Source of the DNA: Demequina iriomotensis | GTDB taxonomy: Bacteria > Actinomycetota > Actinomycetes > Actinomycetales > Demequinaceae | Length of the DNA stretch: 64,000 nucleotides | Assembly (NCBI RefSeq): GCF_000971395.1 | Contig: NZ_BBME01000012.1 | Coordinates: forward strand, 62,001 to 126,000 | Direction: 5' to 3' | Part shown: one piece after another, positions 9,165-46,123 of the stretch | Position numbering within the stretch: the first letter of the stretch is position 1 | How the letters are laid out: every line of letters begins with the position of its first letter | Notes under the pieces: model-generated | What the model was told of the DNA's origin: nothing | Seen by the model: the letters and a program-made list of their open reading frames with translations, nothing else | Databases searched by the model: none | Translations under genes and position numbers: made by a program

Positions 9165-10523
9165 ATGAGCGGTCCGACCCTGATCGAGGGCGGCTACGTC
9201 GCGACGATGGACGCGCGCGGCACCGAGCTGGCGCGCGGCTGGATCACGGTCCGCGGCGGGCGCATCGTCGCGCTCGGCGAGGGCGCGGCCCCGTCCGACG
9301 TCCGCGACGCATTCCCCGAGCGGATCGACGCGCGCGGCGCGCTCGTGACGCCGGGGCTGATCAACACGCACCACCACCTCTACCAGTGGCTCACGCGCGG
9401 CTGGGCGCAGGACTCGATCCTGTTCGACTGGCTGGTCGCGCTCTACCCGACCTGGTCGCGCATCGACGAGGGCACCGCCGGGGCGGCCGCCGCCGGCGCC
9501 ATGGCCGTGCTCGCGCGCTCCGGCTGCACCACCGTGGGCGATCACCACTACATTTTCCCGCGCGGCTCCGGGGACATCGTCGGGTCGATCGTGCACGAGG
9601 CGTCCTCGTTGGGGCTGCGGCTGCACGCGACCCGGGGATCCATGGACCTGGGCGAGTCCGACGGCGGCCTGCCGCCGGACTTCGCGGTCGAGACGACGGA
9701 CGATGCGCTGGCCGCGTCCGCGGAGGCCGTCACCCGATACCACGACGCGTCCTTCGACTCGATGGTGCGCGTCGCGATCGCGCCCTGCTCGCCCTTCTCC
9801 GTGACGTCGGACCTGCTGCGCGAGTCCGCGACCCTGGCCCGGCAGCTGCACGTGCGCCTGCACACGCACGGCGCCGAGACCGTCGAGGAGGAGGCCTTCT
9901 GCCGCGAGCGGTTCGGCCTGTCCCCCACGGACTACCTCGAGTCCCTGGGCTGGCTCGGGCCCGACGTGTGGATGGCGCACTGCGTCCACCTCTCGCCCGA
10001 GGACATCGCGCGGTTCGCCTCGACCGGCACGGGCGTCGCGCACTGCCCGTCGTCGAACGCGCGCCTCGCGGCCGGGATCGCACCCGTGCGCGCACTGGTG
10101 GACGCCGGCGCTCCCGTGGGGCTGGGCGTCGACGGAGCGGCCTCCAACGAGCACGGCCGCCTGGGCTCCGAGATCCGCCAGGCCGCCCTGCTCGCGCGGC
10201 TCCGCGAAGGGGCGGGCGCGATGCCGGTGCGGGACTCGCTGCGCCTCGCCACGATGGGCGGTGCGCGAGTGCTGGGCCGCGAGCGCGAGATCGGCTCCCT
10301 CGAGCCGGGCAAGCTCGCGGACATCGTGCTGTGGGAGCTTGACGAGGTCGAGCACGCCGGCATCGCGGATCCGGTCGCTGCGCTCGGGCTCGGCTCGCTG
10401 CCGCGCGTGCGGCGCATGCTGGTGCAGGGACGCGACGTCGTGGTCGACGGCGAGCTGGCGCGCGCCGACTCCCGCGCGATCGCGGGGCGCGTGCGCGGGG
10501 CGGTCGACGCGCTGCGCGGCTGA
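9165..10523 (+). CDS. 8-oxoguanine deaminase-like amidohydrolase
   Basis: A 452-residue amidohydrolase-superfamily TIM barrel. Metal ligands and landmarks: PGLINTHHHLYQWLTR (His69-71), GDHHYIF, RGSMDLGESDGG, the HTHGAET loop, MAHCVHLS, AHCPSSNARL and LGVDGAASNE with the catalytic Asp. The RGSM(D/S)LGESDGGLPPD stretch is characteristic of 8-oxoguanine deaminases, which convert 8-oxoguanine to urate. Relatives such as atrazine and hydroxyatrazine hydrolases are less likely in this setting. Urate would feed directly into the uricase encoded 11 kb away. A GAGGAG ribosome site precedes the ATG. Confidence 0.75.
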   Translation: MSGPTLIEGGYVATMDARGTELARGWITVRGGRIVALGEGAAPSDVRDAFPERIDARGALVTPGLINTHHHLYQWLTRGWAQDSILFDWLVALYPTWSRIDEGTAGAAAAGAMAVLARSGCTTVGDHHYIFPRGSGDIVGSIVHEASSLGLRLHATRGSMDLGESDGGLPPDFAVETTDDALAASAEAVTRYHDASFDSMVRVAIAPCSPFSVTSDLLRESATLARQLHVRLHTHGAETVEEEAFCRERFGLSPTDYLESLGWLGPDVWMAHCVHLSPEDIARFASTGTGVAHCPSSNARLAAGIAPVRALVDAGAPVGLGVDGAASNEHGRLGSEIRQAALLARLREGAGAMPVRDSLRLATMGGARVLGREREIGSLEPGKLADIVLWELDEVEHAGIADPVAALGLGSLPRVRRMLVQGRDVVVDGELARADSRAIAGRVRGAVDALRG

Positions 10524-15063: not shown

Positions 15064-15864
15064 ATGGATCTCACGACGGTGACCGGATACCGCCGCCCCA
15101 CCAGCCGCGACGAGCTCGTGCTCGCGCCCGGCGAGCGCTTCCTCGCGGGCGGCACCTGGCTCTTCTCCGAGCCCAACCGCGACATCACCGGGCTGGTCGA
15201 CCTCCAGGCCATGGGCTGGCCGCGCCTCGAGGTGAGCCGCGACGGGCTGACCATCGGCGCCACGTGCACCATCGCCGACCTCCTCGCGCTGCCACCCCAC
15301 GTGGGCTGGGCCGCGCAGCCGCTCTTCGCCGAGGCCGCGAACGCGCTGCTCGCGAGCTTCAAGATCTGGAACGAGGCGACCGTGGTGGGCAACATCTGCC
15401 GCGGCTTCTCCGCCGCCGCGATGCTCGCCGCGTGCGTCACCCTCGACGCGGACGCCGTGGTGTGGACCGCCGGAGGCGAGGAGCGCATCGTCCCCGTCGC
15501 CGGCCTTCCCACGGGGAACGGCACCACCACGCTCGCCCACGGCGACCTGGTCCGCGAGGTGCGCATCGGCGCCGATGCGCTGCACGCCCGCACCGCGCTG
15601 CGCAAGATCGCGCTCGCCGAGCTGGGCCGTTCGGGCGCCGTCGTGACCGGACGGGCCCACGCCGACGGCCGCACAGTCATCGTCGTCACCGCCGCCACCC
15701 TGACCCCGACCGTGCTGCGCTACGCCGCGCCCCCGCCGCCCGCCGTCGCGCGGGACGATGCGCGGGCCGCCGCGGGCTTCTACACGGACGCCCTGGGCGC
15801 CGCCGACTGGCGCCGGCACGTCGCGGGCGTGCTCGCGGCCGAGGTCGCCGAGGAGCTCGCATGA
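15064..15864 (+). CDS. Xanthine dehydrogenase, FAD-binding subunit
   Basis: A 266-residue FAD subunit of the molybdenum hydroxylase family. The flavin-binding loop [12 protein letters not shown] occupies the usual position near residue 30, and the second motif [21 protein letters not shown] corresponds to the conserved NxxGN/xxP region. The C-terminal domain is the CO dehydrogenase flavoprotein type. The ATG at 15064 follows a GGAGG ribosome site; an upstream extension reads through the operator region and was rejected. The gene overlaps the next by ATGA. Confidence 0.85.
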
Positions 15865-18557
15865 GGCTGGACGTCGACGGCGCACCCGTCGAGGGCGACC
15901 CCGCGCCCGGCCAGAGCCTGCGCACCTACCTGCGCGGTCAGGGACGCTTCGAGGTGAAGAAGGGCTGCGACGCGGGCGACTGCGGCGCGTGCACGGTGCT
16001 GGTCGACGGCGCGCCCGTGCACTCGTGCCTCTACCCGGCCGTGCGCGCCGAGGGCCGTGCCGTCACCACCGCGGGCGGCCTCGCGCCCGGCGACGAGCCC
16101 CACCCCGTCCAGGACTCGTTCGCGCGCCACTTCGCCTTCCAATGCGGATTCTGCACCCCGGGCATGACGGTCACCGCGTCGACTCTCGCCGAGGAGGACC
16201 TCCCCGATCTCGACCGCCGCCTCAAGGGCAACCTGTGCCGCTGCACGGGCTACCGGCCCATCCGCGAGGCGGTGGAGCACGCGGTGCGCGGCTGCGGAGG
16301 CGGCTGCCTCGGCTGCCCCTCCGGTCAGGGAGACGCGCCGGGGGACGATGCGCCGGTCTCCGCACGCGCCGACGTCCGGCCTCCCGCGGCCGACCGGGTG
16401 GTGCAGGGCCGCGAGCCGTACACGTTCGACGTCGACGTGCCGGGCCTCACCCATCTCAAGGTGCTCGCCTCCCCGCACGCTCATGCGCGCATCGTCGCCA
16501 TCGACGCCTCGGCGGCGCTCGCCATGCCGGGGGTCCACGCCGTCCTCACCCATGAGGACGCGCCCGTCACCCGCTACTCGACCGCGCGCCATGCGAACCG
16601 GCTCGACGACCCTCGCGACACCCGCATCCTCGACTCCGTGGTCCGCTTCCGCGGCCAGCGGGTCGCGGCGGTGGTCGCGGACACCCCCGCCCTGGCCGAG
16701 GCCGCCTGCGCGGTGATCGACGTGATCTACGAGGTGCTGCCCGCGGTCCTCGATCCCGAGGAGGCGCGCTCCCCCGGCGCGCCCCTGGTCCACCCCGCGC
16801 TGACCCCCGAGGACGGCGTCGCCGAGGCCTCGCGCAACGTCGTCGCGTCCTGGCGCGGGGGGTACGGCAACGTCGGGAGGGGCCTCGCGCGGGCCACCGC
16901 GGTCGCGACCGGCACCTGGTCGAACGCGCGCGTCAGCCACGCGCAGCTCGAGACCCACGGCTCGATCGGGTGGATCGACGCGGACGGCAGGCTCACCCTG
17001 CGCACCAGCACCCAGGTGCCGTTCCTCACCCGTGACGAGCTCGCGCTGGTGCTCGACCTCGACCCCTCCACGGTGCGCGTGTTCGCCGCCCGCGTGGGCG
17101 GCGGCTTCGGGGGAAAGCAGGAGATCTTCACCGAGGACATCGTCGCGCTGGCGGTCCTGCGGACCGGCCGGCCCGTCGCGTACGAGATGACGCGCGAGGA
17201 GGAGTTCGTGCGCACCGCGACGCGCCACCCGTTCCGGGTCACCGCGACGCTCGGGGCCGACTCCGACGGCCGGCTCACCGCGATGGACATCGAGGTGCTG
17301 TCCAACACCGGCGCGTACGGCAACCACGCTATCGGCGTGATGTTCCACGGCTGCGCGGAGTCGCTCGAGGCCTACCGCTCCCCCGCCAAGCGCCTGCATG
17401 CCGAGGTGGTCTACACGAACACGACCCCCGCCGGGGCGTTCCGCGGCTACGGGCTGGGGCAGGTGATCTTCGCGGTCGAGTCCGCGCTCGACGATCTCGC
17501 CCTGCGGCTCGGCATCGACCCGTTCGAGCTGCGCCGCCGCAACGCGGTGCGCGACGGCGACAAGCTCGGGGTGACCGAGCGGCGCCACCACGAGGACCTC
17601 ATCTTCGGCTCCTACGGCCTCGACCAGTGCCTCGACCTCGCCGAGGCGGCGCTGCGACGCGGCAACGGCGTCGAGGCGCCTCCCGGGTGGGCGGTGGGCG
17701 AGGGCATGGCGCTGTCGATGATCGCGACCATCCCTCCGCGCGGCCATCCCGCGACGGCGGCGGTCACGGCGTTCCCCGACGGCACCGTCGAGGTCGCGGC
17801 CGGCACCGTCGAGTTCGGCAACGGCACCCACACCGTGCTCACGCAGATCGCGGCCGAGGCGCTGGGCGTCGCGCCCGGAGCCGTACGGCTGCGCACGTCC
17901 GACACCGACGCGACCTCGCACGACACCGGCGCGTGGGGCTCCACCGGCATCACCGTCGCGGGCAAGGCCGTGCACGCGGCGGCGGTCGCGCTGCGGTCGC
18001 TCCTCGACGGCGGCGCGCCCGTGCCGTCCGAAGGGCTCACCGCGCACGGCGAGACCGACGGCAAGGTGCGCTCTCTCGCGTTCAACGTCCACGCCGCGCG
18101 GGTCGCGGTCGACGTCGAGACGGGCCGCGTACGCATCCTCCAGTCCATCCAGGCGGCCGACGCGGGCGTGGTCCTCAACCCCGCGCAGTGCCGCGGCCAG
18201 ATCGAGGGCGGCGTGGCGCAGGGCATCGGCTCGGCGCTCTACGAGGAGGTGCTCATGGGCGACCACGGCTCTCCGACCAACCCCGCCTTCCGCGTCTACC
18301 GCGTGCCCCAGATGGCCGACGTCCCGGAGACCGAGGTCTACTTCGCGCAGACCTCCGACTCCCTGGGCCCGTTGGGCGCGAAGTCGATGTCGGAGTCCCC
18401 CTACAACCCCGTCGCGCCGGCGCTGGCGAACGCGATCCGCCGGGCGATCGGCGCGCGCCCGATGGAGCTGCCGATGACGCGCGACCGGGTGTGGCGGCTC
18501 GCCGCCTCCGTCGCCCCCACCCCGGTGCGGGACGCTCAGCCCTCGGATCTCCGATGA
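15861..18557 (+). CDS. Xanthine dehydrogenase, fused [2Fe-2S] and molybdenum-cofactor subunit
   Basis: An 898-residue fusion of two subunits that are usually separate. Residues 1-142 form the iron-sulfur part: plant-type cluster Cys36/41/44/56 ([12 protein letters not shown]...HSC) and the helical-bundle cluster Cys95/98/126/128 (QCGFC, LCRC). Residues about 170-898 form the molybdopterin part, with [21 protein letters not shown] and a terminal [12 protein letters not shown] whose Glu is the expected catalytic base. The enzyme oxidises hypoxanthine/xanthine to urate. The linker contains an additional Cys145-x3-Cys149-x2-Cys152 motif not needed for either known cluster. Its 3' end overlaps the convergent xdhC by 22 bp. 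Confidence 0.9.
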
Positions 18558-19456: not shown

Positions 19457-19489
19457 GCCCGCCAGTCTGTCACCCCCCGGAGGGAAGAG

Positions 19490-20806
19490 ATGAGCCACGA
19501 CCTGGTCATTCGCGCCGCGCGCGCCGTGCTGCCGACGGGGGAGGTGCCGGCCGCGGTCTTCATCGGCGGCGGCCGCATCGTCGCCGTGGGCCCCGCCGAT
19601 GCGCCGGCCCCGGGCATCCCCGAGGTGGTCCTCGCGCCCGACGAGGTGCTCCTGCCCGGGGCCGTCGACACCCATGTGCACGTCAACGAGCCGGGACGCA
19701 CCGAGTGGGAGGGCTTCGACTCGGCGACGCGCGCGGCGCGGGCGGGCGGAGTCACCACGCTCATCGACATGCCGCTCAACTCGATCCCGCCGACAGTCTC
19801 GCCCGAGGCGCTGGCCGTGAAGCAGTCCGCCGCGGCCGGCAAGACGCACGTCAACGTGGGCTTCTGGGGTGGCGCGGTGCCCTCCAGCCTGGGCTCGCTG
19901 CGCGCGCTGTGGGACCAGGGGGTCTTCGGATTCAAGTGCTTCCTCGCGCCCAGCGGCGTGGACGAGTTCCCTCATCTCAACCGCGGGCAGCTCCTGCGCG
20001 CGATGGACGAGATCGCGGGCTTCGGCGGGCTGCTCATCGTGCACGCGGAGGACCCGGAGGTGCTCGAGGCGTACGACACCGCACCCGGTCGCGACTTCGC
20101 GGCATTCATGGCCACGCGTCCCCAGGCCGCGGAGACGAGCGCGATCGAGACCGTCATCGCCGCGATGCGCGAGACGGGGGCGCGCGCCCACGTCCTTCAT
20201 CTGTCCGCAGCCTCCGCGCTCCCGCTCATCGCCGAGGCCAAGGCGGAGGGGCTACCCCTGACCGTCGAGACCTGCCCCCACTACCTCACGTTCGACGCGG
20301 CCCATGTGCCCGACGGCGCGACCCAGTACAAGTGCTGCCCTCCCATCCGCTCCGAGGAGAACCGCGAGCGGCTCTGGGAGGCCCTCGCCTCCGGGGTCAT
20401 CGACTTCGTGGCGTCCGACCACTCCCCCGCCACCGCCGACCTCAAGCTCGCCGGCGGCGGCGACTTCGGGGTCGCGTGGGGAGGGATCGCCGGCCTCCAG
20501 ACGTCGCTCGCGGCCGTCTGGACGGGGGCACGGATGCGGGGATTCTCGCTCGTCGATGTGGTGGGCTGGATGTCCACGCGGCCGGCGGCATGGTCGGGGC
20601 TCGCCACCAAGGGCGCGATCGAGGCCGGTCGCGACGCGGACCTGGTGGCCTTCGCCGCCGAGGAGCCGTGGGAGGTGCACGCCGACTCCCTCGAGCACCG
20701 CAACAAGGTGAGCGCCTATGACGGCGCGGCGCTCGCGGGGCGCGCGCGTCGGGTGTGGATCGGAGGCGTCGAGGACGCCGCGGGGGTTATGGTCGCCCGG
20801 CCGTAG
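19490..20806 (+). CDS. allB: Allantoinase
   Basis: Allantoinase opens the ring of S-allantoin to give allantoate. The 438-residue amidohydrolase has DTHVHVNEPGRTEWEGF (metal His62 and His64), the carbamylated-Lys region FGFKCFLAPSG, LLIVHAEDP, VLHLSAASALP and SDHSPAT with the catalytic Asp. NEPGRTEWEGF and FKCFL distinguish it from dihydropyrimidinases and dihydroorotases. A GAGGGAAGAG ribosome site precedes the ATG. The long open frame upstream overlaps xdh antisense and was ignored. Confidence 0.93.
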   Translation: MSHDLVIRAARAVLPTGEVPAAVFIGGGRIVAVGPADAPAPGIPEVVLAPDEVLLPGAVDTHVHVNEPGRTEWEGFDSATRAARAGGVTTLIDMPLNSIPPTVSPEALAVKQSAAAGKTHVNVGFWGGAVPSSLGSLRALWDQGVFGFKCFLAPSGVDEFPHLNRGQLLRAMDEIAGFGGLLIVHAEDPEVLEAYDTAPGRDFAAFMATRPQAAETSAIETVIAAMRETGARAHVLHLSAASALPLIAEAKAEGLPLTVETCPHYLTFDAAHVPDGATQYKCCPPIRSEENRERLWEALASGVIDFVASDHSPATADLKLAGGGDFGVAWGGIAGLQTSLAAVWTGARMRGFSLVDVVGWMSTRPAAWSGLATKGAIEAGRDADLVAFAAEEPWEVHADSLEHRNKVSAYDGAALAGRARRVWIGGVEDAAGVMVARP

Positions 20807-20862: not shown

Positions 20863-21762
20863 ATGATCATCCTGGGCGACCACCAGTACGGCAAGGCGGA
20901 GAACCGCATCGTGCGCATCGTGCGCGACACCCCGCGCCACGAGATCCGCGACGTCAACGTGAGCTCGTGCCTGCGCGGGCGGTTCGACGAGGCCCACCTC
21001 ACGGGCGACCAGGGCGCCGTCCTCCCGACCGACACGCAGAAGCAGACGTCCTACGCCTTCGCGAAGACCCTCGGCCTGGCCTCGCTCGAGCGCTACGCGC
21101 ATGCGCTCGCGGCGCACTTCGTCGACGACGTCGAGCCCGTCGACCAGGCGCGCGTCGAGCTCGAGGAGTTCGCGTGGGAGCGCGTGTCCGTGGGGGGCAC
21201 CGAGCACGACTTCTCGTGGGTGCGCTCGGGCCAGGAGGTCCGCACGGTGTCCGTCACCGTGGAGGACGGCGGCCTGTGGATCACCGGAGGGCTCAAGGAC
21301 CTGGTGGTGCTCAAGTCCTCAGGCTCCGAGTTCCACGGCTTCCTCAAGGACGAGTACACCGTCCTCGAGCCGACGTCGGACCGCATCATGGCGACCTCGC
21401 TGGTCGCGAGGTGGCGCTTTGGCGACGTGGACGTCGAGACCTTCGACTTCGACGAGGCCTACGCCGAGATCAAGGCCGCCCTGGTCGAGACCTTTGCGGG
21501 ATTCCACTCCCTCGCGCTGCAGCAGACGCTCTACGAGATGGGCAAGGCCGCGCTCGAGGCGGTGCCGGAGCTGGTCGAGGTGCGCCTGAGCGCGCCCAAC
21601 AAGCACCACTTCGCCTACAACCTGGCGCCGTTCGGCATCTCCAACGAGAACGAGGTCTTCCACGCGGACGACCGGCCCTACGGCCTCATCCAGGCGAGCG
21701 TCACCCGCGACGATGCGCCGCCCGCCGGGCCCGCGTGGGTGGGGTACAGCGGGCTCGTGTAG
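20863..21762 (+). CDS. Urate oxidase (uricase)
   Basis: Uricase oxidises urate to 5-hydroxyisourate without cofactor. The 299-residue protein is the usual size and has the two tunnelling-fold repeats. Landmarks are QYGKAENRIVRIVRD (Lys of the catalytic pair), VLPTDTQKQTSYAFAK (Thr), the substrate segment SGSEFHGFLKDEYTVL, and NKHHFAYNLAPFGISNENEVF near the C-terminus. The ATG at 20863 is preferred over a GTG nine bases earlier because it fits the -10 box and the family N-terminus. It follows allantoinase by 56 bp but has its own operator and promoter. Confidence 0.95.
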   Translation: MIILGDHQYGKAENRIVRIVRDTPRHEIRDVNVSSCLRGRFDEAHLTGDQGAVLPTDTQKQTSYAFAKTLGLASLERYAHALAAHFVDDVEPVDQARVELEEFAWERVSVGGTEHDFSWVRSGQEVRTVSVTVEDGGLWITGGLKDLVVLKSSGSEFHGFLKDEYTVLEPTSDRIMATSLVARWRFGDVDVETFDFDEAYAEIKAALVETFAGFHSLALQQTLYEMGKAALEAVPELVEVRLSAPNKHHFAYNLAPFGISNENEVFHADDRPYGLIQASVTRDDAPPAGPAWVGYSGLV

Positions 21763-37814: not shown

Positions 37815-38135
37815 TCACGAGCCCCGATACGTCGAGTAGCCGAACGGGCTGAGCAGCAACGGCACGTGGTAGTGCTCGTCGCCCGCGATGCCGAAGGCGA
37901 TGCGCACCTCCGGGTAGAACGTCGCGACGCCGTGGTCGGCGAACCACTCCCCGGTGGCGAACACCAGCTGGTACGTCCCCGGATGCAGGCGGTCCGGGCC
38001 GAGCGACGCGACGCGGCCGTCCGCGTCGGTCGCACCGGTCGCGATCTCCTCGCCCCCATGGAGCAGCCGCACGTGGATGCCTGCCGCCGGCCGGCCATGG
38101 ACCGAGTCCAGCACGTGCGTGGTCACGTGGCTCAT
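37815..38135 (-). CDS. pucM: 5-Hydroxyisourate hydrolase (transthyretin-like)
   Basis: It hydrolyses 5-hydroxyisourate, the uricase product, to OHCU. The 106-residue protein has the N-terminal VTTHVLDSVHGRPAAG, central RLHPGTYQLVF, a FYPEVRIAF strand, DEHYHVPLLLSPFGYSTYRGS and the diagnostic YRGS C-terminus. Active-site His, Arg and Ser residues are all present. The ATG overlaps the stop of the OHCU decarboxylase gene (ATGA), so the two enzymes of consecutive steps are co-translated. Confidence 0.96.
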   Translation of the reverse strand: MSHVTTHVLDSVHGRPAAGIHVRLLHGGEEIATGATDADGRVASLGPDRLHPGTYQLVFATGEWFADHGVATFYPEVRIAFGIAGDEHYHVPLLLSPFGYSTYRGS

Positions 38136-38608
38136 GCGGCCACCTCCCCGTAGGTCGCGCGGAGGCGCAACAGCGCGATCCCCCGCAGCTGATCCGCCAC
38201 CTCCGCGAGCTCGACGGCGTCCTCGTTCGCGAGGCGCCGCTCCAGCTCCGCGACGATCTCCTCGCGCGAGCGCCCCGCCGCGCGGATGAGGAACACCCGG
38301 TCGAAGCGCTGCTCGTAGGCGCGGTTCCCGTCCGCGAGGCGGCTCGCGAGCGCCTCGTCCCCGGAGGCGGAGGCCACCTGCTCGGAGCGCGAGAAGCGCG
38401 ACTCCGCATCGTCGCCGTCGCGGCGCTCGCCGATGCGCGGGTGGGCCGCGAGCGCCTCGTCGATCTCCTCCGGCGTCAGCGGCGTCGCCGCGGACACGGC
38501 CGCGCGCTCGAGCTCGAGCAGCGAGCCGTAGGCGCGCGCCGCCACCTCGGACGCCCAGCGGTCCACGCGCAGGCACGCGAGCAGATCCTCGCGGGTGGGT
38601 TCGATCAT
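38132..38608 (-). CDS. OHCU decarboxylase
   Basis: 2-Oxo-4-hydroxy-4-carboxy-5-ureidoimidazoline decarboxylase makes S-allantoin. The 158-residue all-helical protein has the catalytic His56 in AAHPRIGE, the substrate motif FLIRAAGRSREEIVAELERRLANE, and ends at RATYGEV. An AAGGAG ribosome site lies before the ATG. It is the first gene of a two-gene operon with HIU hydrolase and diverges from mocA with only 14 bp between the two starts. Confidence 0.94.
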   Translation of the reverse strand: MIEPTREDLLACLRVDRWASEVAARAYGSLLELERAAVSAATPLTPEEIDEALAAHPRIGERRDGDDAESRFSRSEQVASASGDEALASRLADGNRAYEQRFDRVFLIRAAGRSREEIVAELERRLANEDAVELAEVADQLRGIALLRLRATYGEVAA

Positions 38609-39193: not shown

Positions 39194-40039
39194 TCAGACC
39201 TCGATCTCACCGCGCACGCACACGTCGGTCGCGCCGCCGATCCAGAGCTGCTCGTCGACCGGCGTCACGTGCACGCGTCCGCGCCGACCGATCGCCGTGC
39301 CTTGCGCCGCGACGTACGGCGCCTCGATCCGGCCCGACTCGGTCAGCCACTGGCCCAGCGAGGCGTTGAGCGACCCGGTGACGGGATCCTCGTGGAGCGC
39401 GCCGGTGCCTCCGGTGAAGAACCCCCTCACCTCGATCTCGGCGTGCTCTCCTGCGGCGTGACGCGCGAAGACGCCGAGGTCCCATTCGCCCTCGCGCCCG
39501 GCGAGCTCGGGCTCGAGCGCGAGCAGCTCCTCGACCGAGCCGAGCTCGATGGCCACCCAGCCCGGACCGTTGTCGACCCACTGCGAGCCGATCACGCGGT
39601 CGACGGAGATGCCGAGCACCGCGCAGAACTCGGCCAGGTCCTCCGCGGAGACCGGTCCCGTGCGCCGCCGCGCGGGCGCGGCGAACGCCAGCCGCTCGCC
39701 GTCGTCCCACACCTCGACGAGGCCGACGGCGCACTCCTGAACGATGCGCTTGGCGTCACGCGGGACGCCGCCCGCGTCGAGCCACGCGCGCGCGGTCCCC
39801 AGGGTCGGGTGGCCGGCGAACGGCAGCTCGGTCCTGAGGTTGAAGATGCGCACGCGATAGTCGGCGTCGGGGGTGGTCGGCTCGAGCACGAAGGTGCACT
39901 CGGACAGGTTGGTCCACACCGAGATCGCGACCATCTGCGCGTCGGTGAGGCCGTCGGCGCCGAGGATCACCGCGACGGGGTTGCCGGTGTACGGGTCGGC
40001 GCCGAATACGTCGACCTGGCGGAAGGGAAGGGAGGTCAT
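39194..40039 (-). CDS. PhzF-family isomerase/epimerase
   Basis: A 281-residue protein with the diaminopimelate-epimerase-like double fold of PhzF: FRQVDVFGADPYTGNPVAV at the N-terminus, LSECTFVL (catalytic Glu), RIFNLRTELPFAGHPTLGTA and, in the second half, GFFTGGTGALHEDPVTGSLNASLGQWL. Substrates of most members are unknown. It lies downstream of allC on the same strand (55 bp gap) and may be cotranscribed with the purine genes, but no role in that pathway is evident. Confidence 0.85.
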   Translation of the reverse strand: MTSLPFRQVDVFGADPYTGNPVAVILGADGLTDAQMVAISVWTNLSECTFVLEPTTPDADYRVRIFNLRTELPFAGHPTLGTARAWLDAGGVPRDAKRIVQECAVGLVEVWDDGERLAFAAPARRRTGPVSAEDLAEFCAVLGISVDRVIGSQWVDNGPGWVAIELGSVEELLALEPELAGREGEWDLGVFARHAAGEHAEIEVRGFFTGGTGALHEDPVTGSLNASLGQWLTESGRIEAPYVAAQGTAIGRRGRVHVTPVDEQLWIGGATDVCVRGEIEV

Positions 40040-40094: not shown

Positions 40095-41387
40095 TCACGC
40101 GGACAGCCCGTCCTGGACGCGCTGCGCCGCCGCGAGCACGGCGGCCTCGAACGCGTCGATGGCGAGGGCGACGTCCTCGACGGATACGACCTCGTCGGGA
40201 TGGTGGCTCACGCCGCCGTTGCCGTTGCGGACGAACAGCATCGCGTACGGCGTGAGCGACGCGATCGCCATCGCGTCATGGCCGGCCTTCGACAGCAGCT
40301 CCATCGGCTCCGCGTCGCCCGTCGCCGCGGTCACGCCGGCCTCGACGGCCTCGCTCAGGCGACGCTCGGACGAGGTCGCGCGCGCCTCGTGCCGCAGGCG
40401 CTCGGTGAACGCGAGCCGGCGCTCCCCCGCCGCCTCGACCGCGTGCGCGCGGATCTCCTCCCACGCCTTGTCCCGGTCGGCATCGGTGGCCGCCCGCACG
40501 TCGAGAGAGAAGTCCGCGCGGCCGGGGATCACGTTCGCGGCGCCCGGGCCCACCGTCATCTGCCCCACGGTGCCGACCACCCCGCGCGCCAGGGCCACCC
40601 GCTCGACGGCGAGCGCCGTCTGCGCCGCGCCGAGCAGCGCGTCGCGGCGGTGGCGCATCGGCACACCGCCCGCGTGACCGGCCGCGCCCTCCATGGTGAG
40701 GTCGAAGCGCTTGGCCCCCATGATCCCCGAGACCACGCCGAGCGGGTGGCCCGCGTCGAGCAGCAGCGGGCCCTGCTCGATGTGGGCCTCGAGATAGCCC
40801 ACCAGGGTCGCGGGGTCGAGAGCCGCCTCGCCGACGGCGTCGGGGTCGAGCCCGAACGCGGCGAGCGCCTCGCGCATCGTGACGCCGTCGGCGTCCTCGA
40901 GGTCGAGCCATGCGGGATCCCACGTGCCGGCGACCGCGCACGAGCCCAGCAGCGTGCGCCCGAAGCGCACCCCCTCCTCGTCGGCGAAGCCCAGCACCTC
41001 CAGCGCGAAGGGCAGGCGCACGCCGTTGGCGTGCAGGCGCCGCACCACGGCGATGGCGATCATCACGCCCAGGATGCCGTCGTACCGGCCGGCGTCGGGC
41101 ACGGTGTCGAGATGCGAGCCGAGCAGCAGGACCGGCGCGTCGGGCGTCGCGCCCGGGTACGAGCCGCGCGCGTTGCCCGCCGCGTCCTGCCACGGGCGCA
41201 TGCCCGCGGCGCCCATCCACTCCGCCACCTGCGCGTTGGCGCGCGCATGCTCGGGCGAGAGGTACACGCGCTCGATCCCGCCATCCATCGAGGAGATGCC
41301 CGCGAGGACGTCGCAGCGGCGCATCACCTCGCGTGCGTCGTCGAGCGAGGCGCCGCCCGCGGCTCCCGCGCGCCGCGCGCGCCTCAC
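40095..41387 (-). CDS. allC: Allantoate amidohydrolase (M20 family)
   Basis: AllC hydrolyses allantoate to ureidoglycine, CO2 and ammonia. The 430-residue protein has the M20 dinuclear metal site: LLGSHLDTVPDAGRYDG (His, Asp), FADEEGVRFG (Glu pair), EAHIEQGP (His) and VSHHPDE (terminal His). Other family landmarks are GAAGHAGGVPM and NVIPGRADFSLDVR. The GTG start at 41387 overlaps the stop of the aminotransferase gene (GTGA). The similar hydantoinase/carbamoylase family is an alternative, but the adjacent pucG-type gene favours allantoate. Confidence 0.88.
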   Translation of the reverse strand: MRRARRAGAAGGASLDDAREVMRRCDVLAGISSMDGGIERVYLSPEHARANAQVAEWMGAAGMRPWQDAAGNARGSYPGATPDAPVLLLGSHLDTVPDAGRYDGILGVMIAIAVVRRLHANGVRLPFALEVLGFADEEGVRFGRTLLGSCAVAGTWDPAWLDLEDADGVTMREALAAFGLDPDAVGEAALDPATLVGYLEAHIEQGPLLLDAGHPLGVVSGIMGAKRFDLTMEGAAGHAGGVPMRHRRDALLGAAQTALAVERVALARGVVGTVGQMTVGPGAANVIPGRADFSLDVRAATDADRDKAWEEIRAHAVEAAGERRLAFTERLRHEARATSSERRLSEAVEAGVTAATGDAEPMELLSKAGHDAMAIASLTPYAMLFVRNGNGGVSHHPDEVVSVEDVALAIDAFEAAVLAAAQRVQDGLSA

Positions 41388-42610
41388 GCCGCGGCCCCGT
41401 ACACGTCGTAGGCCGCCTCGACGCCGCCGCCGGCGGGCACCGCGTGGCCGAGCCTTCTCAGCACGGCCTCGAGCGCGGCGAGCGTCCCGAGCACGGCGTC
41501 CTTGCGGGCGTTGTAGCCCATGGTGCCGATGCGCCACACGCGTCCCGCGAGCGGGCCGAAGGAGGTGCCGATCTCGATCCCGAAGTCGCGCAGGAGGACG
41601 CCGCGCACCGCCTCGCCGTCGATCCCGGAGGGGATGACCACGCCCACGACGTTGGCCATCTTGTGCGCGCGGTCGCCGTACACCTCGAGGCCCAGCCCCT
41701 CGACGCCCGCGACCATGGCCGCGCCGTGGAGGGAGTGGCGCTCCTGATACGCGGGCAGTCCCGCCTCGAGGATGATGCGGGCGCACTCGCGCGCGCCGTA
41801 GAGCATGGTCGCGGCCTCGGTGTGGTGGTTGAGGCGGCGCGGCGACCAGTAGTCGAAGATCATCGCGAGGTCGAAGTAGTTCGAGCGGATCGGGTGCGCG
41901 GCGACCGGGTCGCCGTCGACGCGGATGCCCGCCTCGATGGACCTGCGCCCCTCGATCAGCTCGACCGCGCGCGGAGAGAACGTCGCCGGAGCCGAGCCGG
42001 AGGGCCCGCCCAGGCACTTCTGCAGGCCCGCGGTGGCGGCGTCGACGCCCCACGCGTCGGTCGGGAACGGGTTGCCGCCCAGCGTCGCGGTGACGTCCGC
42101 GTAGAGCAGGCACTCGTAGCGGTCGCACAGCTCGCGGAGCCCGTCGAAGGGCTGCATCATCGTGGTCGAGGTGTCGCCGTGCACCGTCGCGAGGAGGCTG
42201 GGCCGCACGCGCTCCATCGCCTCCGCGATGCGCTCGAGCGGCACCACCTCGCCCCAGGGCGCGTCGACCGTGTGGACGTCCGCGCCGCACCGCTCCGCGA
42301 TCTCGACCAGCAGGTGGCCGAACCTCCCCATGACGGGGACCAGCACGCGATCACCCGGCGACACCAGCGACACGAGGGCTGCCTCGATCGCGCCGCGCGA
42401 GGTGGAGTCCACGAGCAGGGTCTGCGCGTTCGCGGTCGCGAACACCCCACGGTAGAGGTCCATGACCTCGTTCATGGTGTCCGTCATGTACGGGTCGTAC
42501 TGCCCCACCAGCTGCGCCGACATGGCGCGCAGCACCCGCGGGTCGGCCGTGATGGGACCGGGGCCCATCAGCAGCCGCGCGGGCGGGTCGATCGGGCCTG
42601 GCAGGGACAT
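41384..42610 (-). CDS. pucG: (S)-Ureidoglycine-glyoxylate aminotransferase (PucG-like)
   Basis: A 408-residue class V, PLP-dependent aminotransferase. Typical stretches are LMGPGPITADPRVLRAM, DSTSRGAIEAALVSL, TVHGDTSTTMMQP, YADVTATLGGNPF and the PLP-lysine motif GLQKCLGGPSG (Lys198), with WRIGTMGYNARKDAVL near the end. PucG of Bacillus transfers the amino group of ureidoglycine to glyoxylate, giving oxalurate and glycine; serine- or alanine-glyoxylate aminotransferases are close relatives. Position directly before allC supports PucG. A GGGGAGG ribosome site precedes the ATG, and operator site 3 lies 14 bp upstream. Confidence 0.85.
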   Translation of the reverse strand: MSLPGPIDPPARLLMGPGPITADPRVLRAMSAQLVGQYDPYMTDTMNEVMDLYRGVFATANAQTLLVDSTSRGAIEAALVSLVSPGDRVLVPVMGRFGHLLVEIAERCGADVHTVDAPWGEVVPLERIAEAMERVRPSLLATVHGDTSTTMMQPFDGLRELCDRYECLLYADVTATLGGNPFPTDAWGVDAATAGLQKCLGGPSGSAPATFSPRAVELIEGRRSIEAGIRVDGDPVAAHPIRSNYFDLAMIFDYWSPRRLNHHTEAATMLYGARECARIILEAGLPAYQERHSLHGAAMVAGVEGLGLEVYGDRAHKMANVVGVVIPSGIDGEAVRGVLLRDFGIEIGTSFGPLAGRVWRIGTMGYNARKDAVLGTLAALEAVLRRLGHAVPAGGGVEAAYDVYGAAA

Positions 42611-42624
42611 CGGGGCCTCCCCGG

Positions 42625-42646
42625 AATGTTGATGTGACTTACACAG
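42625..42646. promoter_or_regulatory. Candidate purine-regulon operator, site 3
   Basis: On the minus strand this reads GTGTAAGT-cac-ATCAACAT, matching sites 1 and 2 best in the right half (ATCAACATNCC). It ends 14 bp before the pucG ATG and overlaps the stop codon of the upstream amidase gene. This suggests that pucG-allC has its own regulated promoter inside the longer operon. Confidence 0.5.
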
Positions 42647-44219
42647 TCTGCCCTGACGATGTTTCGCCTGGATTGCGCAGGAGCGCCTCGAGGGCGAGAC
42701 CCGCCTCGACCAGCGCGAGCTCGGAGCCGGCCGGCCCCACCAGGCACATCCCCACCGGCCCGTCGGGCGTGTCGAGCAGCGGCACCGACAGCGCCGGACG
42801 CCCGGTCAGCCCCGCGATCGCGGTGATGCTGAGCGTCGCGCGGCGACGCTCCTCGAGCTCCGGCTCGGCCGCGTCGAGCGACGGCGCCGCGGAGGCGGCC
42901 GAGGGCACCAGCAGGATGCGGTCCCCGAGCTCGAGGTCGAGCCGCGCGGCGAGCAGGCCCGCATCCGCGAGCGCGTCCGCCTCCTGGTCGTGCGTGACGT
43001 CGCGGGCGAAGTCGAAGCGGTCCTGGACGTCCGGCGCGAGGGCCCCGGGATGCGACTCGACCCACGCGCCGTCGGACACCCACGCCTCGGCCGACTGCGT
43101 GAGGCGGAACGCCAGCAGCATGTCGTCGAGCGCGGGCACGTCGACAGGCGCGACGCGCAGCCCCGCGTCCGCGAGCGCCCCGAGCGCGACGTCGAAGGCG
43201 TCGCGCACGCCGGCCGCGCACGACATCATGACCGCGGGCGCCGCGAGATAGGAGGCCTCGGGCTCCACCGACGGCGCGCCCGCGAGCCCGACGCTCGCCA
43301 CCCGGCGCATCGTCTCCCCGTCCCGGGTGAGCCAGCCCGCCGTGTCGTAGCGCGGCGCGAGGGGCGCGACGTGCTCGAGGCTGACGGCGCCGTGGGTCGG
43401 CCGCAGGCCCCAGAGCCCCTGATAGGACGCGGGGACGCGGATCGAGCCCGCCGTGTCGGTGCCGAGCCCGATGCTCGCCTGGCCCAGCGCGACCGCGCTC
43501 GCGGGCCCCGAGCTCGAGCCGCCCGGGATCGCGCCGGGGACGGCGACGTTGGGAGGCGTGCCGTAGTCGGGGTTGAGCCCCGCGATCGAGTAGGCGAACT
43601 GGTCGGTCTGCGCGATGCCGCGCACGTCCGCGCCGGCGTCGAGCAGCGCCTGCACGGCGGGGGCGGTCCGCTCCTCCACGGGCGCCTCGGCGAGGTAGGC
43701 GCGCACCCCCACGCCGATGCGCTGGCCGGCGATCGCGAAGAGGTCCTTGACCGCCACGGTCTCGCCCGCGAGCGGACCCTCGTCCGCGCCGGCGACCAGC
43801 GGGGCGCCGACGACGCGCCAGACGCGCCCGTCGATCGCCGGTGCGGGCGCGGTCACGTGCGCGGCGACGATGCGCCACGCGCCGGCGCCGTCGCGCCTCC
43901 ACAGCTGGGTGACCAGCCCGCGACCGCCGCCCGCGGGCGCGTTGACCGTGGTGACGTGCGCCGCATCGTCCCCGGCCGGGTGGACGCGGACCTCGGCCAC
44001 CTCGCGCGCACCGGCACCGCCGCGGCGCGAGCGGAAGCCCGCGATGCGCTCGTGACCCACGAGCAGGCCGGCCCGGTCGCCACGCACCGTGTCCGGCCCC
44101 GGCGCGAAGGCCGCGGCGAGCGCGTCCAGGTCGTCCGCGCCGAGCGCGGCCTCGTACGCGAGCACCGCCTCGACCAGCCCGGCGGGCGCCTCGGCCCCGC
44201 CCTCCACGACGATGTTCAT
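42639..44219 (-). CDS. AtzH-like domain fused to an amidase (HpxZ-HpxY-like fusion)
   Basis: A 526-residue fusion. Residues 1-125 form an NTF2-like/DUF3225 (AtzH, HpxZ) domain with FAPGPDTVRGDRAGLLVGHERIAGFRSRR. Residues about 135-526 form an amidase-signature enzyme with Lys158 (VAVKDLFAI), cis-Ser235 (PGGSSSGPA) and nucleophile Ser259 (DTAGSIRVPAS). Separate AtzH/AtzE pairs act in cyanuric-acid breakdown, and HpxZ/HpxY occur in Klebsiella purine (oxamate) catabolism. Located between a PucG-type gene and a formamidase-like gene, it plausibly acts on oxalurate, oxamate or a carboxylated urea. Overlaps the upstream gene by ATGA. Confidence 0.8.
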   Translation of the reverse strand: MNIVVEGGAEAPAGLVEAVLAYEAALGADDLDALAAAFAPGPDTVRGDRAGLLVGHERIAGFRSRRGGAGAREVAEVRVHPAGDDAAHVTTVNAPAGGGRGLVTQLWRRDGAGAWRIVAAHVTAPAPAIDGRVWRVVGAPLVAGADEGPLAGETVAVKDLFAIAGQRIGVGVRAYLAEAPVEERTAPAVQALLDAGADVRGIAQTDQFAYSIAGLNPDYGTPPNVAVPGAIPGGSSSGPASAVALGQASIGLGTDTAGSIRVPASYQGLWGLRPTHGAVSLEHVAPLAPRYDTAGWLTRDGETMRRVASVGLAGAPSVEPEASYLAAPAVMMSCAAGVRDAFDVALGALADAGLRVAPVDVPALDDMLLAFRLTQSAEAWVSDGAWVESHPGALAPDVQDRFDFARDVTHDQEADALADAGLLAARLDLELGDRILLVPSAASAAPSLDAAEPELEERRRATLSITAIAGLTGRPALSVPLLDTPDGPVGMCLVGPAGSELALVEAGLALEALLRNPGETSSGQTV

Positions 44220-45304
44220 CGGACCCCCTCGAAGTCGGCGCGGCGGATGCGGGCGTGGACCCCGGAGACCAGGTCCACCACCTGCGAGATCTCGAAGTCG
44301 GTCGCCGCGGACAGGTACGCGTACGCGAGGTGCGGCGCCATGCCGTAGCGCGCGCCCAGCAGCGCGATGGCCTGGCGCACGCACGCGCGCATGGCCTCGT
44401 CGAGGTCCTCGTCGAGACCGGTGGGCATGAGGTGGGTGGCATCCGCGGCGAGCGGCCCGGCGAGCGCGCCGAACTCGCGCGCCGCCTCGGACGCGTCGAG
44501 CAGGTCGAGCCGGATGCGCACGCGCAGCGACGCCTCGAGCGCCGTGAGCGCGACCTCGCCGTTGCCCTGCGCGAAGTGGGGGTCGCCGACGTATGCGAGC
44601 GCACCGGCGACCTGCACGGGGACGTACAGCGTCGCACCGGCGGTGAGGTGACGGATGTCGATGTTGCCGCCGTGCGGGCCGGGCGGCACGGAGTGCGCGC
44701 GCGCGTCCGTGTCGGTGGCGACGCCCATGATCCCCAGGAACGGTGCGAGCGGGAAGCTCACGGACCGCTCGCCGTCGGGCGTGAGCGGGAGCCGGCCCCG
44801 CCACTCGCCCCGCTCGTCGGGCGCGATCGGCGTGAACACCGACACGTCGCCGGGACCCGCCGGCATCTCGCCCGGCAGCGCGCCGCGGCCGTGCCGGTTC
44901 GAGATGACGCCGTAGGGCACGCGCGGGGTCGCGTCGAGCAGCGTGATCGCGAGCAGGTCCCCGGGTCGCGCGCCGCGCACCTCGATGGGCCCCGTGACCA
45001 CGTGCGGCCCGTCCGAGGCGTCGCGGACGCGCGTCGCGGCGATCGCGACCGCGTCCTCGAGCACCTCCTCGGCGGCGACGCCGTGGCCCGTGAAGAACGC
45101 GAGCGGGTCGCCTCCCTGGTCGGGGAGCAGGCCCTCATGGCTCACCGTGTCGACCGTCAGCTCTGCGCCCGGATCGACCGCGGCCGCGGGGGCGTCGCCG
45201 CGCCGGGGCAGACGGCCCCAGTGCACGAGCGCAGGGTCCGCCGGGAGGTACGTGTCCGCGCCCACGCGCGCGCCGGGCTGCAATGCGCCCTGGTAGTCCC
45301 CCAC
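44216..45304 (-). CDS. Acetamidase/formamidase family protein
   Basis: A 362-residue FmdA/AmdA family hydrolase. The highly conserved core HGGNIDIRHLTAGATLYVPV and YVGDPHFAQGNGEVALTALE is intact, as are the N-terminal TVDTVSHEG and VTGPIEVRGARPGDLLAI. The family releases ammonia from small amides such as formamide. With the amidase fusion it would complete nitrogen release from purine end products. The GTG at 45304 fits the homologous N-terminus; the long upstream frame is an antisense shadow of the DUF1275 gene. It is the first gene of the operon. Confidence 0.88.
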   Translation of the reverse strand: MGDYQGALQPGARVGADTYLPADPALVHWGRLPRRGDAPAAAVDPGAELTVDTVSHEGLLPDQGGDPLAFFTGHGVAAEEVLEDAVAIAATRVRDASDGPHVVTGPIEVRGARPGDLLAITLLDATPRVPYGVISNRHGRGALPGEMPAGPGDVSVFTPIAPDERGEWRGRLPLTPDGERSVSFPLAPFLGIMGVATDTDARAHSVPPGPHGGNIDIRHLTAGATLYVPVQVAGALAYVGDPHFAQGNGEVALTALEASLRVRIRLDLLDASEAAREFGALAGPLAADATHLMPTGLDEDLDEAMRACVRQAIALLGARYGMAPHLAYAYLSAATDFEISQVVDLVSGVHARIRRADFEGVR

Positions 45305-45418: not shown

Positions 45419-46123
45419 GTGCTCGACCGCATGCGCCGCAACCCCGCGAACGCCCACCTGGGCCTCATGCTCGCGCTCACCTTCTCGACCGGCATCATCG
45501 ATGCGGTCGGCTACCTCGGCCTCGACCGCGTCTTCACGGGCAACATGACCGGCAACGTCGTGATCCTCGGCATGGGTCTCGCGGGAGACACCGGACTCCC
45601 GATCGTGGGGCCCCTGATCGCGCTCGGCGGGTTCATGGCCGGCGCGGCGCTCGGCGGGCGCGCGCTGCGCGGCTCCGCCGACGCGTGGACCCCGCGCCAC
45701 ACCGTGCTGTTCGGCGCCGTGGGCGTGGTCATCGCTCTCGCCGCCGTGCCCGCCTCGCTGCTCGAGCACGAGGGCACCGCGCTGCAGTACGCGATCACGC
45801 TCGCGCTCGGTGCAGCCATGGGATGCCAGGCCGCCGCCGCGCGCCACGTCGCCGTCAAGGACGTCACCACGGTCGTGGTGACGTCGACCATCACCGGCCT
45901 CGCCTCCGACTCCGTGCTCGGCAAGGGCGGCGGCCAGCCGTGGAAGCGCCGCGCGGGGGCGATCGCGCTCATCAGCCTCGGCGCGCTCACGGGTGCGCTG
46001 CTGCTCAAGCTGCACATCGGCGCCGGCATGGCGCTGTCCGCGATCATCACGCTCGTGGTCGCCTGGCTCGGCCAGGTCTCGCACCCGAGCAGGCTCGCAC
46101 GCCTGCCGTACGACCAGGACTGA
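45419..46123 (+). CDS. DUF1275 (YoaK-like) membrane protein
   Basis: A 234-residue membrane protein with about six helices. The N-terminal GIIDAVGYLGLDRVFTGNMTGNVVILGM is the hallmark of the DUF1275/YoaK family, and MGCQAAAARHVAVKDVTTVVVTSTITGLASDS is the second conserved block. Function is unknown; a transport role is often proposed. The GTG start follows a GGAGGA ribosome site at the right spacing. It is divergent from the formamidase operon, so a link to amide or ammonia handling is possible but unproven. Confidence 0.85.
   Translation: MLDRMRRNPANAHLGLMLALTFSTGIIDAVGYLGLDRVFTGNMTGNVVILGMGLAGDTGLPIVGPLIALGGFMAGAALGGRALRGSADAWTPRHTVLFGAVGVVIALAAVPASLLEHEGTALQYAITLALGAAMGCQAAAARHVAVKDVTTVVVTSTITGLASDSVLGKGGGQPWKRRAGAIALISLGALTGALLLKLHIGAGMALSAIITLVVAWLGQVSHPSRLARLPYDQD

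Follow-up and report, generated by a model that had tools for sequence, protein, structure and literature searches.

A candidate two-gene module for oxalurate consumption beside pucG in Demequina iriomotensis and other actinobacteria

In a 64,000-nucleotide stretch of the Demequina iriomotensis genome (hereafter the window, whose numbering is used for all coordinates), a gene for an FmdA-type amidase and a gene fusing an AtzH/HpxZ-like domain to an amidase were found next to pucG (Table 1). We consider it probable, on balance, that the two form a module consuming oxalurate, the product of PucG. The data establish gene structure, protein families, catalytic residues, conserved linkage and co-occurrence with PucG. 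The first-pass annotation of the window had proposed a connection with PucG, and hence with oxalurate; the co-occurrence, conserved operons and the parallel with the Klebsiella hpx genes all support it strongly. All of the chemical steps and the order of the enzymes are our inference. The amidase would hydrolyse the terminal ureido amide of oxalurate, releasing ammonia and N-carboxyoxamate. The AtzH/HpxZ domain of the same polypeptide would convert this unstable carbamate into oxamate and CO2, much as AtzH probably decarboxylates 1,3-dicarboxyurea. FmdA, a putative oxamate amidohydrolase, would then yield oxalate and a second ammonia.

The 3' end of fmdA overlapped the start of the fusion gene by four bases, and the pair was located upstream of pucG and allC, with 28 bases separating the fusion gene from pucG. 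The gene calls, the Pfam matches and this overlap confirmed the initial description of two overlapping genes upstream of pucG. The window PucG-like protein was 63% identical to Klebsiella HpxJ. The best-matching structures were the ureidoglycine-glyoxylate aminotransferase 3nnk (570 bits) and B. subtilis PucG 3isl (434 bits), the next one scoring 295, and by these structure-sequence scores the protein was nearer to the characterised PucG/HpxJ enzymes than to other class V aminotransferases. A Pfam scan (E 0.001 or 1e-10) of 39 of the 56 genes called in the window detected no ureidoglycine aminohydrolase or ureidoglycolate lyase, in line with the initial reading. The best NCBIfam models for the large xanthine dehydrogenase-like subunit were xanthine dehydrogenase subunits, with scores below their cut-offs. 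An apparent XdhC-allantoinase fusion at 18554-20806 was rejected, as the allantoinase starts at 19490 and the preceding frame has no Pfam match. The long frames that precede the allantoinase domain at loci L179 and L186 probably also result from misplaced starts.

Table 1. Position of the candidate oxalurate module and of other purine-related genes in the window.
Feature	Position	Strand	Details and basis
AtzH-amidase fusion, whole gene	42639-44219	-	526 aa, ATG start
AtzH/HpxZ-like domain at the N-terminus of the fusion, residues 1-128	43836..44219	-	Pfam PF11533, alignment to AtzH 6bjt
PRK08310-like amidase-signature domain of the fusion, starting near residue 129	42639..43835	-	Pfam PF01425, NCBIfam
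FmdA/AmdA-type amidase	44216..45304	-	362 aa, presumed GTG start; PF03069
PucG/HpxJ-type (S)-ureidoglycine-glyoxylate aminotransferase, forming oxalurate	41384..42610	-	3nnk, 3isl and HpxJ matches
Allantoate amidohydrolase, AllC type	40095..41324	-	NCBIfam NF006775 above cut-off
OHCU decarboxylase	38132..38608	-	TIGR03180 above cut-off
5-hydroxyisourate hydrolase	37815..38135	-	TIGR02962 above cut-off
Allantoinase AllB, same pathway, separate cluster	19490..20806	+	TIGR03178 above cut-off
Urate oxidase, same pathway, separate cluster	20863..21762	+	TIGR03383 above cut-off
Xanthine dehydrogenase-like subunits, same pathway, separate cluster	15064..18557	+	Pfam
8-oxoguanine/guanine deaminase	9165..10523	+	NF006055 above cut-off

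The first-pass annotation had suggested surveying the co-occurrence of the fusion with pucG across actinobacteria, and had named a lack of co-occurrence as grounds for refutation; the survey favoured its proposal. Among 393 genomes of the class, the amidase was present in all 27 that carry a true PucG, compared to 55 overall (Fisher p ~1e-26, genomes being counted as independent of kinship), and FmdA in 26 of these 27, compared to 67 of the 393 overall. Weak PucG matches (38-42% identity, E 1e-56 to 1e-66) were treated as paralogues and used as a negative control: the 20 class genomes possessing only such a paralogue showed neither the amidase nor FmdA at E 1e-50. True PucG was absent from 28 of the 55 amidase-bearing genomes, 20 of which had FmdA. 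In the genus Demequina (37 genomes), PucG was found in 25 genomes, accompanied by the amidase in 25 and by FmdA in 24. The fusion is not due to chance, since a search of the other 36 Demequina genomes recovered it in 24, at 59-87% identity and nearly full length.

A second survey started from pucG, using the best-scoring 80 of at least 590 confirmed matches, which were all actinobacterial and bear on actinobacteria only. Genes in the related loci were called by a codon-usage script, and their start sites are approximate. Of these 80, 62 loci had at least 20 kb (full-flank loci); the amidase was called in 55 and FmdA in 53. In several families, the operons unite the pair with genes for OHCU decarboxylase, HIU hydrolase, uricase, allantoinase, AllC and an RpiR regulator. 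The idea that Curtobacterium had lost the pair along with its place by pucG was rejected, as FmdA-fusion pairs were present elsewhere in five of six genomes. In Curtobacterium ZW137, the pucG operon contains one pair, and a second lies next to transporter genes (locus L232); pairs situated away from pucG in other Curtobacterium may therefore be paralogues with another task.

This second pair belongs to the observations that leave a small chance that the pair acts on another purine-ureide compound, or is a general small-amide scavenger riding in the operon. Amidase relatives in class genomes without a true PucG were located in operons with creatininase, isochorismatase, cupin and luciferase-like genes, and another one on a Rhodococcus plasmid among monooxygenases and ABC transporters. 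As these close relatives lie in operons devoid of purine genes, the amidase family serves other substrates too. Four Demequina genomes had the amidase and no PucG: two of them (G021 and G032) possessed a full-length fusion in the absence of FmdA, and in G008, which also lacks FmdA, the fusion was frameshifted and the positions of Tyr22, Arg63, Arg66 and Arg72 (aligned by eye) were changed, an observation in favour of the oxalurate module. However, a passenger would hardly follow PucG when unlinked, and six of the seven genomes in which the pair was not at the pucG locus carried an FmdA-fusion pair elsewhere; the 27 of 27 co-occurrence in the class also argues against a passenger.

Within the favoured oxalurate module, FmdA is no less a part of the unit than the fusion. 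Its gene was directly upstream of the amidase gene in 49 of the 51 full-flank pucG loci with calls for both (from the best 80 of at least 590 matches), and in two Microbacterium species FmdA and the amidase formed one polypeptide, as in Microbacterium kunmingense. PF03069 was the sole Pfam match of the window protein (E 2e-29), a family in common with the FmdA/AmdA formamidases and acetamidases, with 3b9t and 2ii1 as solved relatives. It scored 78 bits on the NCBIfam FmdA equivalog with a cut-off of 500, and is thus not an orthologue of the formamidase FmdA by this model. FmdA-type enzymes act on formamide and acetamide; to our knowledge, none has been linked to oxamate.

The amidase domain was first described as AtzE/HpxY-like, which did not hold beyond the common superfamily. 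The PF01425 amidase match starts at residue 144 of the fusion (E 8e-49). The best NCBIfam family was PRK08310, with 349.6 bits (below the cut-off of 391), compared to 131 and 130 bits on the two AtzE models (cut-offs of 461 and 426, respectively); Klebsiella HpxY itself reached 773 bits on the AtzE model. The BLASTP alignment with HpxY was largely confined to a catalytic core of 152 columns (41%), plus one short segment at the C-terminus. HpxY was far outside in the amidase tree, which was built without AtzE, AtzF and two own-genome paralogues (short alignable length), and whose deep branching order is unreliable owing to its long branches. An AtzE/HpxY-like assignment was rejected on the NCBIfam scores, the tree and BLASTP, and by sequence comparison the domain comes closest to PRK08310. 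No gene for an AtzG/HpxX (GatC-like) partner adjoins the fusion, fmdA overlapping it on one side and pucG following on the other. Lys158, Ser235 and Ser259, which we take to be the Ser-cisSer-Lys triad from the roles known in other amidases, were invariant in alignments A1, A3 and A4. An Azospirillum plasmid encodes a PRK08310 amidase (538 bits, above cut-off) 44% identical to that of the fusion; its gene overlaps hpxZ, near xanthine-dehydrogenase-type and DUF1116 (AllG) genes. A Roseomonas plasmid amidase, followed by hpxZ, grouped with it in the tree. In contrast to the fusion, these plasmid genes are separate, in the order amidase then hpxZ, and neither FmdA nor PucG is annotated within 5 kb of them.

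The N-terminal domain was matched by PF11533 at residues 14-123 of the fusion (E 2e-16, 60 bits for a cut-off of 27), corresponding to profile positions 11-121 of 126. The catalytic residues of AtzH are Tyr22 and Arg46, according to PMC6219798. Both, and most of the arginine pocket, were retained in the fusion as aligned to 6bjt, and the match and these residues bear out the kinship to HpxZ/AtzH claimed initially. The AtzH dyad and the pocket Arg63, Arg66, Arg73 and Gln108 were present in 22 of 22 rows of alignment A1. In A3, Arg46 was present in 32 of 33 rows (one gap) and Arg66 in 32 of 33 (one His). Fusion residues Tyr22, Arg46, Arg63, Arg66, Arg72 and Gln105 were found in all 45 rows of A4; these counts hold for the rows aligned, that is the window fusion together with 44 of 68 fusion genes called in the best 80 pucG loci, selected for a length of 490-560 aa with two of 46 omitted. 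The fusion differed from AtzH at two pocket positions: Arg96, since fusion position 93 (matched by eye) was never Arg, and the variable Gln106, for which fusion position 103 carried Val in 19 of the 22 A1 rows, and 27 of the 45 A4 rows had Gln.

The AtzH domain is not essential, since six of the 62 full-flank pucG loci (best 80 of at least 590 PucG matches) lack it and keep the amidase, as do loci L101, L118 and L124; the Cryobacterium glaciale amidase is one that lacks the AtzH domain. This dispensability would suit swapped roles, in which FmdA attacks oxalurate, the amidase hydrolyses oxamate, and the AtzH domain has a structural role or promotes oligomerisation. The sequence does not give the order of action, and in two Subtercola genomes FmdA adjoins pucG with the fusion elsewhere. 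Such an arrangement is nevertheless unlikely: a structural domain would not need the dyad and pocket that are invariant in the 45 aligned pucG-linked fusions, and the Azospirillum amidase of the same type overlaps a separate hpxZ gene.

The proposed order, with the amidase acting first on oxalurate, can be compared to known systems. In Klebsiella, hpxX, hpxY, hpxZ and an RpiR gene adjoin the pucG homologue hpxJ, so that an HpxZ/AtzH protein and an amidase are found together as in the window pair; the NCBI annotation designates HpxX and HpxZ as oxalurate catabolism proteins. Klebsiella HpxY is of AtzE type, with a separate HpxX partner and unfused to HpxZ, whereas the Demequina amidase is PRK08310-like and fused. 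FmdA stands where Klebsiella would have HpxW, an oxamate amidohydrolase (PMC5270733) homologous to gamma-glutamyl transpeptidase (PMC3560190); the Pfam search of the window FmdA gave no such homology. As the amidase subfamily differs from HpxY and the FmdA family from HpxW, the route may have been assembled separately around the same aminotransferase. In AtzG-AtzE-AtzH of Pseudomonas sp. ADP, the amidase takes the terminal ureido amide and AtzH probably decarboxylates the product, 1,3-dicarboxyurea (PMC6219798). The scheme of a terminal-amide amidase with AtzH, and the Tyr22/Arg46 pair given there, recur in Demequina, which differs by its amidase subfamily, the lack of AtzG, the single polypeptide and the absence of adjoining AtzD/AtzF. 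The E. coli oxamic transcarbamylase AllFGH, with AllK, consumes oxalurate and yields oxamate (PMC11326118); it is phosphorolytic and produces carbamoyl phosphate, whereas the Demequina route would be hydrolytic. AllG had no match in any of the 37 Demequina, which therefore lack the established path to oxamate through AllFGH. In many actinobacteria, the pair accompanying pucG probably turns oxalurate into oxalate, CO2 and ammonia with enzymes unlike those of Klebsiella or E. coli.

It is distinctly unlikely that the amidase instead cleaves oxalurate at its inner amide into oxalate and urea, with FmdA acting on another small amide. The fold of the amidase domain is that of amide hydrolases in general, and the nearest Foldseek matches of the predicted structure (pLDDT 92.5) include malonamidase E2. 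No urease was matched in any of the 37 Demequina, and the argument that urea would be useless was weakened by the urea carboxylase and allophanate hydrolase encoded in the own genome, which can probably use urea; a urea-forming cleavage would therefore not be wasteful there. However, urea carboxylase was above cut-off in 8 of the 25 PucG-bearing Demequina, leaving 17 with neither route (urea might be excreted), and with an inner-amide cut neither the AtzH decarboxylase-type domain nor FmdA would have a function to perform.

We know of no account of the fate of oxalurate after PucG in organisms lacking oxamic transcarbamylase, a gap in purine catabolism. The terminal-amide scheme offers a concrete two-gene candidate answer for many actinobacteria. 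There is about an even chance that a hydrolytic, phosphate-independent oxalurate-to-oxalate pathway is widespread among them, composed of a PRK08310-type amidase, an AtzH domain as N-carboxyoxamate decarboxylase and an FmdA-type oxamate amidohydrolase; no description of a pathway of this make-up was found in the openly licensed papers searched. If true, AtzH/HpxZ domains would gain a natural role other than cyanurate breakdown, and the family a physiological substrate. Many proteins presently called "amidase" or "acetamidase/formamidase family protein" could be named, and the natural variants with, without or with rearranged domains bear on the question of why an unstable carbamate needs its own decarboxylase.

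The genes of the AtzH-amidase fusion and of the FmdA/AmdA-family protein shared 4 bases, and those of the PucG-type aminotransferase and allantoate amidohydrolase lay downstream, followed by a PhzF-like gene, OHCU decarboxylase and HIU hydrolase. A second purine cluster, at 9–22 kb of the window, contained a guanine-type deaminase, xanthine dehydrogenase-like genes, allantoinase and urate oxidase, so that the window covers nearly the entire guanine-to-oxalurate route. Oxalurate is the product of PucG. The window aminotransferase was 63% identical to Klebsiella HpxJ, and the solved ureidoglycine-glyoxylate aminotransferase 3nnk was a better match to it than B. subtilis PucG (3isl).

Other genes of the region are included in the table. 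The PhzF-family gene, within the purine operon, adjoined allC in most mapped Demequina loci, but did so in only 5 of 80 pucG loci (best 80 of 590 matches). The MobA-like gene, on the opposite strand inside the cluster, recurred near OHCU decarboxylase in many loci; its product is perhaps a molybdenum cofactor cytidylyltransferase serving xanthine dehydrogenase. The DUF1275 gene, divergent from fmdA, occupied the same place in Demequina, Microbacteriaceae and others, and is a candidate transporter tied to the pathway.

Features of the proposed oxalurate module and its surroundings (window positions unless a locus, L, or the organism's own genome, G000, is named)
Feature	Coordinates	Strand	Remarks
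AtzH-amidase fusion	42639-44219	-	526 residues; PF11533 residues 14-123; PF01425 from residue 144
FmdA/AmdA-family protein	44216-45304	-	362 residues; upstream of fusion
PucG-type aminotransferase	41384-42610	-	downstream of fusion
Allantoate amidohydrolase	40095-41324	-	downstream of fusion
PhzF-family gene	39194-40039	-	
MobA-like nucleotidyltransferase	38623-39192	+	
DUF1275 membrane protein	45419-46123	+	
Amidohydrolase-family gene (PF01979)	32029-33465	+	between the two purine clusters
Natural FmdA-amidase fusion, AtzH-less	L179:7578-9959		Microbacterium kunmingense
Natural FmdA-amidase fusion, AtzH-less	L186:7516-9963		Microbacterium sp. AK009
Urea carboxylase and allophanate hydrolase genes	G000:C14:61325-69252		near each other

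The relatives survey covered 59 genomes, 37 of them Demequina. PucG was present in 25 of the 37; all 25 had the amidase (in pieces in genome G026) and 24 had FmdA, the one lacking a match (G004) being cut there by a contig end. The amidase occurred without PucG or FmdA in four Demequina: the G008 fusion had a frameshift and, in an alignment by eye, changes at AtzH Tyr22 and at three arginines of the pocket, the G017 amidase had no AtzH domain, and the fusions of G021 and G032 were full-length. In the 393-genome class survey (true PucG at E < 1e-170, amidase at E 1e-50 or better), true PucG was found in 27 genomes. The link of the fusion to pucG proposed in the first-pass annotation was borne out: the amidase was present in 27/27 of these (55 genomes in all) and FmdA in 26/27 (67/393 in all), with Fisher p values, kinship ignored, of about 1e-26 and 2e-21, respectively. 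The 20 class genomes with no true PucG but a relative of about 40% identity had neither. Among true-PucG genomes, the amidase lay apart from pucG in G241 and G044, and FmdA in G217; in G171 a divergent AtzH-less amidase adjoined pucG and FmdA was unmatched.

A survey starting from PucG (best 80 of 590 matches in the genome collection) gave 62 loci with at least 20 kb around pucG. Among these best matches, 55/62 loci had the amidase and 53/62 FmdA; the AtzH domain was in-frame in 47 of the 55 amidases, in a shifted frame in 2 and absent from 6. Of the 51 such loci with both genes called, 49 had FmdA immediately upstream of the amidase, and the two overlapped in 30 of the 49 by our own gene calls. 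In two Microbacterium strains they formed a single open frame of 793 (M. kunmingense) or 815 (AK009) residues. The seven full-flank loci without the amidase, again among the best 80 of 590, belonged to six Curtobacterium and one Galbitalea. Six of these genomes had the fusion elsewhere, always adjoining FmdA; the seventh, a Curtobacterium, gave no fusion match. Two Subtercola and one Aeromicrobium with shorter pucG loci lacking the amidase also had the fusion elsewhere, with FmdA not beside it. The fusion thus tends to follow PucG even if unlinked. Curtobacterium MCBA15_001 had two pucG operons (L234, L235) with a pair in each. Curtobacterium ZW137 had one pair inside the pucG operon and another beside transporter genes (L232), so that unlinked pairs may be paralogues.

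The published work on AtzH describes it as probably decarboxylating 1,3-dicarboxyurea, which the amidase AtzE forms, with Tyr22 and Arg46 as the most important residues and a pocket of Arg63, Arg66, Arg73, Arg96, Gln106 and Gln108 (PMC6219798). The AtzH part of the fusion could be aligned to the AtzH structure 6bjt. The fusion counterparts (Tyr22, Arg46, Arg63, Arg66, Arg72, Gln105) were found in 22/22 rows of one alignment and in 45/45 of the alignment of pucG-linked fusions; in a wider alignment of 33 rows, Arg46 was gapped in one row and Arg66 replaced by His in one. An arginine at the Arg96 position was never found in the aligned fusions, and the Gln106 position was variable. In the amidase domain, the Lys, cis-Ser and Ser of the superfamily were kept in every aligned row. 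The first-pass description of this domain as AtzE/HpxY-like did not hold: the best curated family was PRK08310 (350 bits, below cut-off), whereas two AtzE models gave about 130 bits (Klebsiella HpxY scores 773 on AtzE), and HpxY fell far outside in the amidase tree, on a long branch. With an AlphaFold2 model (mean pLDDT 92.5, pTM 0.81), the top Foldseek matches were an amidase (2dc0) and malonamidase E2; allophanate hydrolase and 6c62, which we take to be AtzE, came lower.

Oxalurate is H2N-CO-NH-CO-COO-. We propose that it would be deaminated at the ureido end to N-carboxyoxamate, a carbamate resembling 1,3-dicarboxyurea, that the AtzH domain would speed the loss of CO2 to give oxamate, and that FmdA would convert oxamate to oxalate and NH3. 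This scheme, inferred throughout, would assign every part a role. The AtzH domain was repeatedly absent (Cryobacterium glaciale, Cryobacterium frigoriphilum, the FmdA-amidase fusion, L118 and L124), which fits the scheme because carbamates also lose CO2 spontaneously. Counting against the scheme, the formation of urea from oxalurate would be no waste for this organism, since its own genome has an allophanate hydrolase above cut-off and a urea carboxylase. However, urea carboxylase was above cut-off in only 8 of the 25 PucG-bearing Demequina (11/37 Demequina in all), and urease in none.

Also counting against the scheme, true PucG was missing from 28 of the 55 amidase-bearing class genomes, and the amidase, AtzH-bearing or AtzH-less and often with FmdA, was also seen in PucG-free operons. 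Such operons, at L088-L092, L094-L099, L205 and L238, had genes for the AtzH-amidase fusion or for the amidase, in many cases with FmdA nearby. Their partners included several of creatininase, isochorismatase, cupin, metallo-beta-lactamase-fold and luciferase-like genes, and from this gene content the operons would be another catabolic context in which these enzymes work. On a Rhodococcus plasmid the amidase was beside monooxygenases and ABC transporters.

In Klebsiella, the neighbours of the HpxX, HpxY and HpxZ genes include an RpiR regulator and a homologue of PucG; NCBI annotates HpxX and HpxZ as oxalurate catabolism proteins. The AtzH work describes that cluster with a ggt-like gene, a transaminase and allantoate amidohydrolase (PMC6219798), and HpxW, the ggt-like protein, is an oxamate amidohydrolase (PMC5270733). 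A 2025 paper gives hpxY two names, "oxalurate amidohydrolase" in its text and "oxamate carbamoyltransferase" in one of its legends (PMC12625717), so that the Klebsiella step is not settled there. The E. coli route uses AllFGH, the oxamic transcarbamylase (PMC11326118); AllG had no match in the 37 Demequina. An Azospirillum plasmid carries a PRK08310 amidase gene (44% identity over the domain) that overlaps a separate hpxZ gene, with xanthine-dehydrogenase-type and DUF1116 genes nearby, and Roseomonas has a similar pair. A pair of this kind, its order inverted, may have given rise to the actinobacterial fusion. The openly licensed papers searched, in the text available, included none on an AtzH-amidase fusion, FmdA in oxalurate breakdown or this actinobacterial operon. 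The module is real and conserved. Like the Klebsiella system, it combines an amidase with an HpxZ domain and a further amide hydrolase, at the matching point of the pathway, and it is best read as a new form of the Klebsiella hpx-type oxalurate route.
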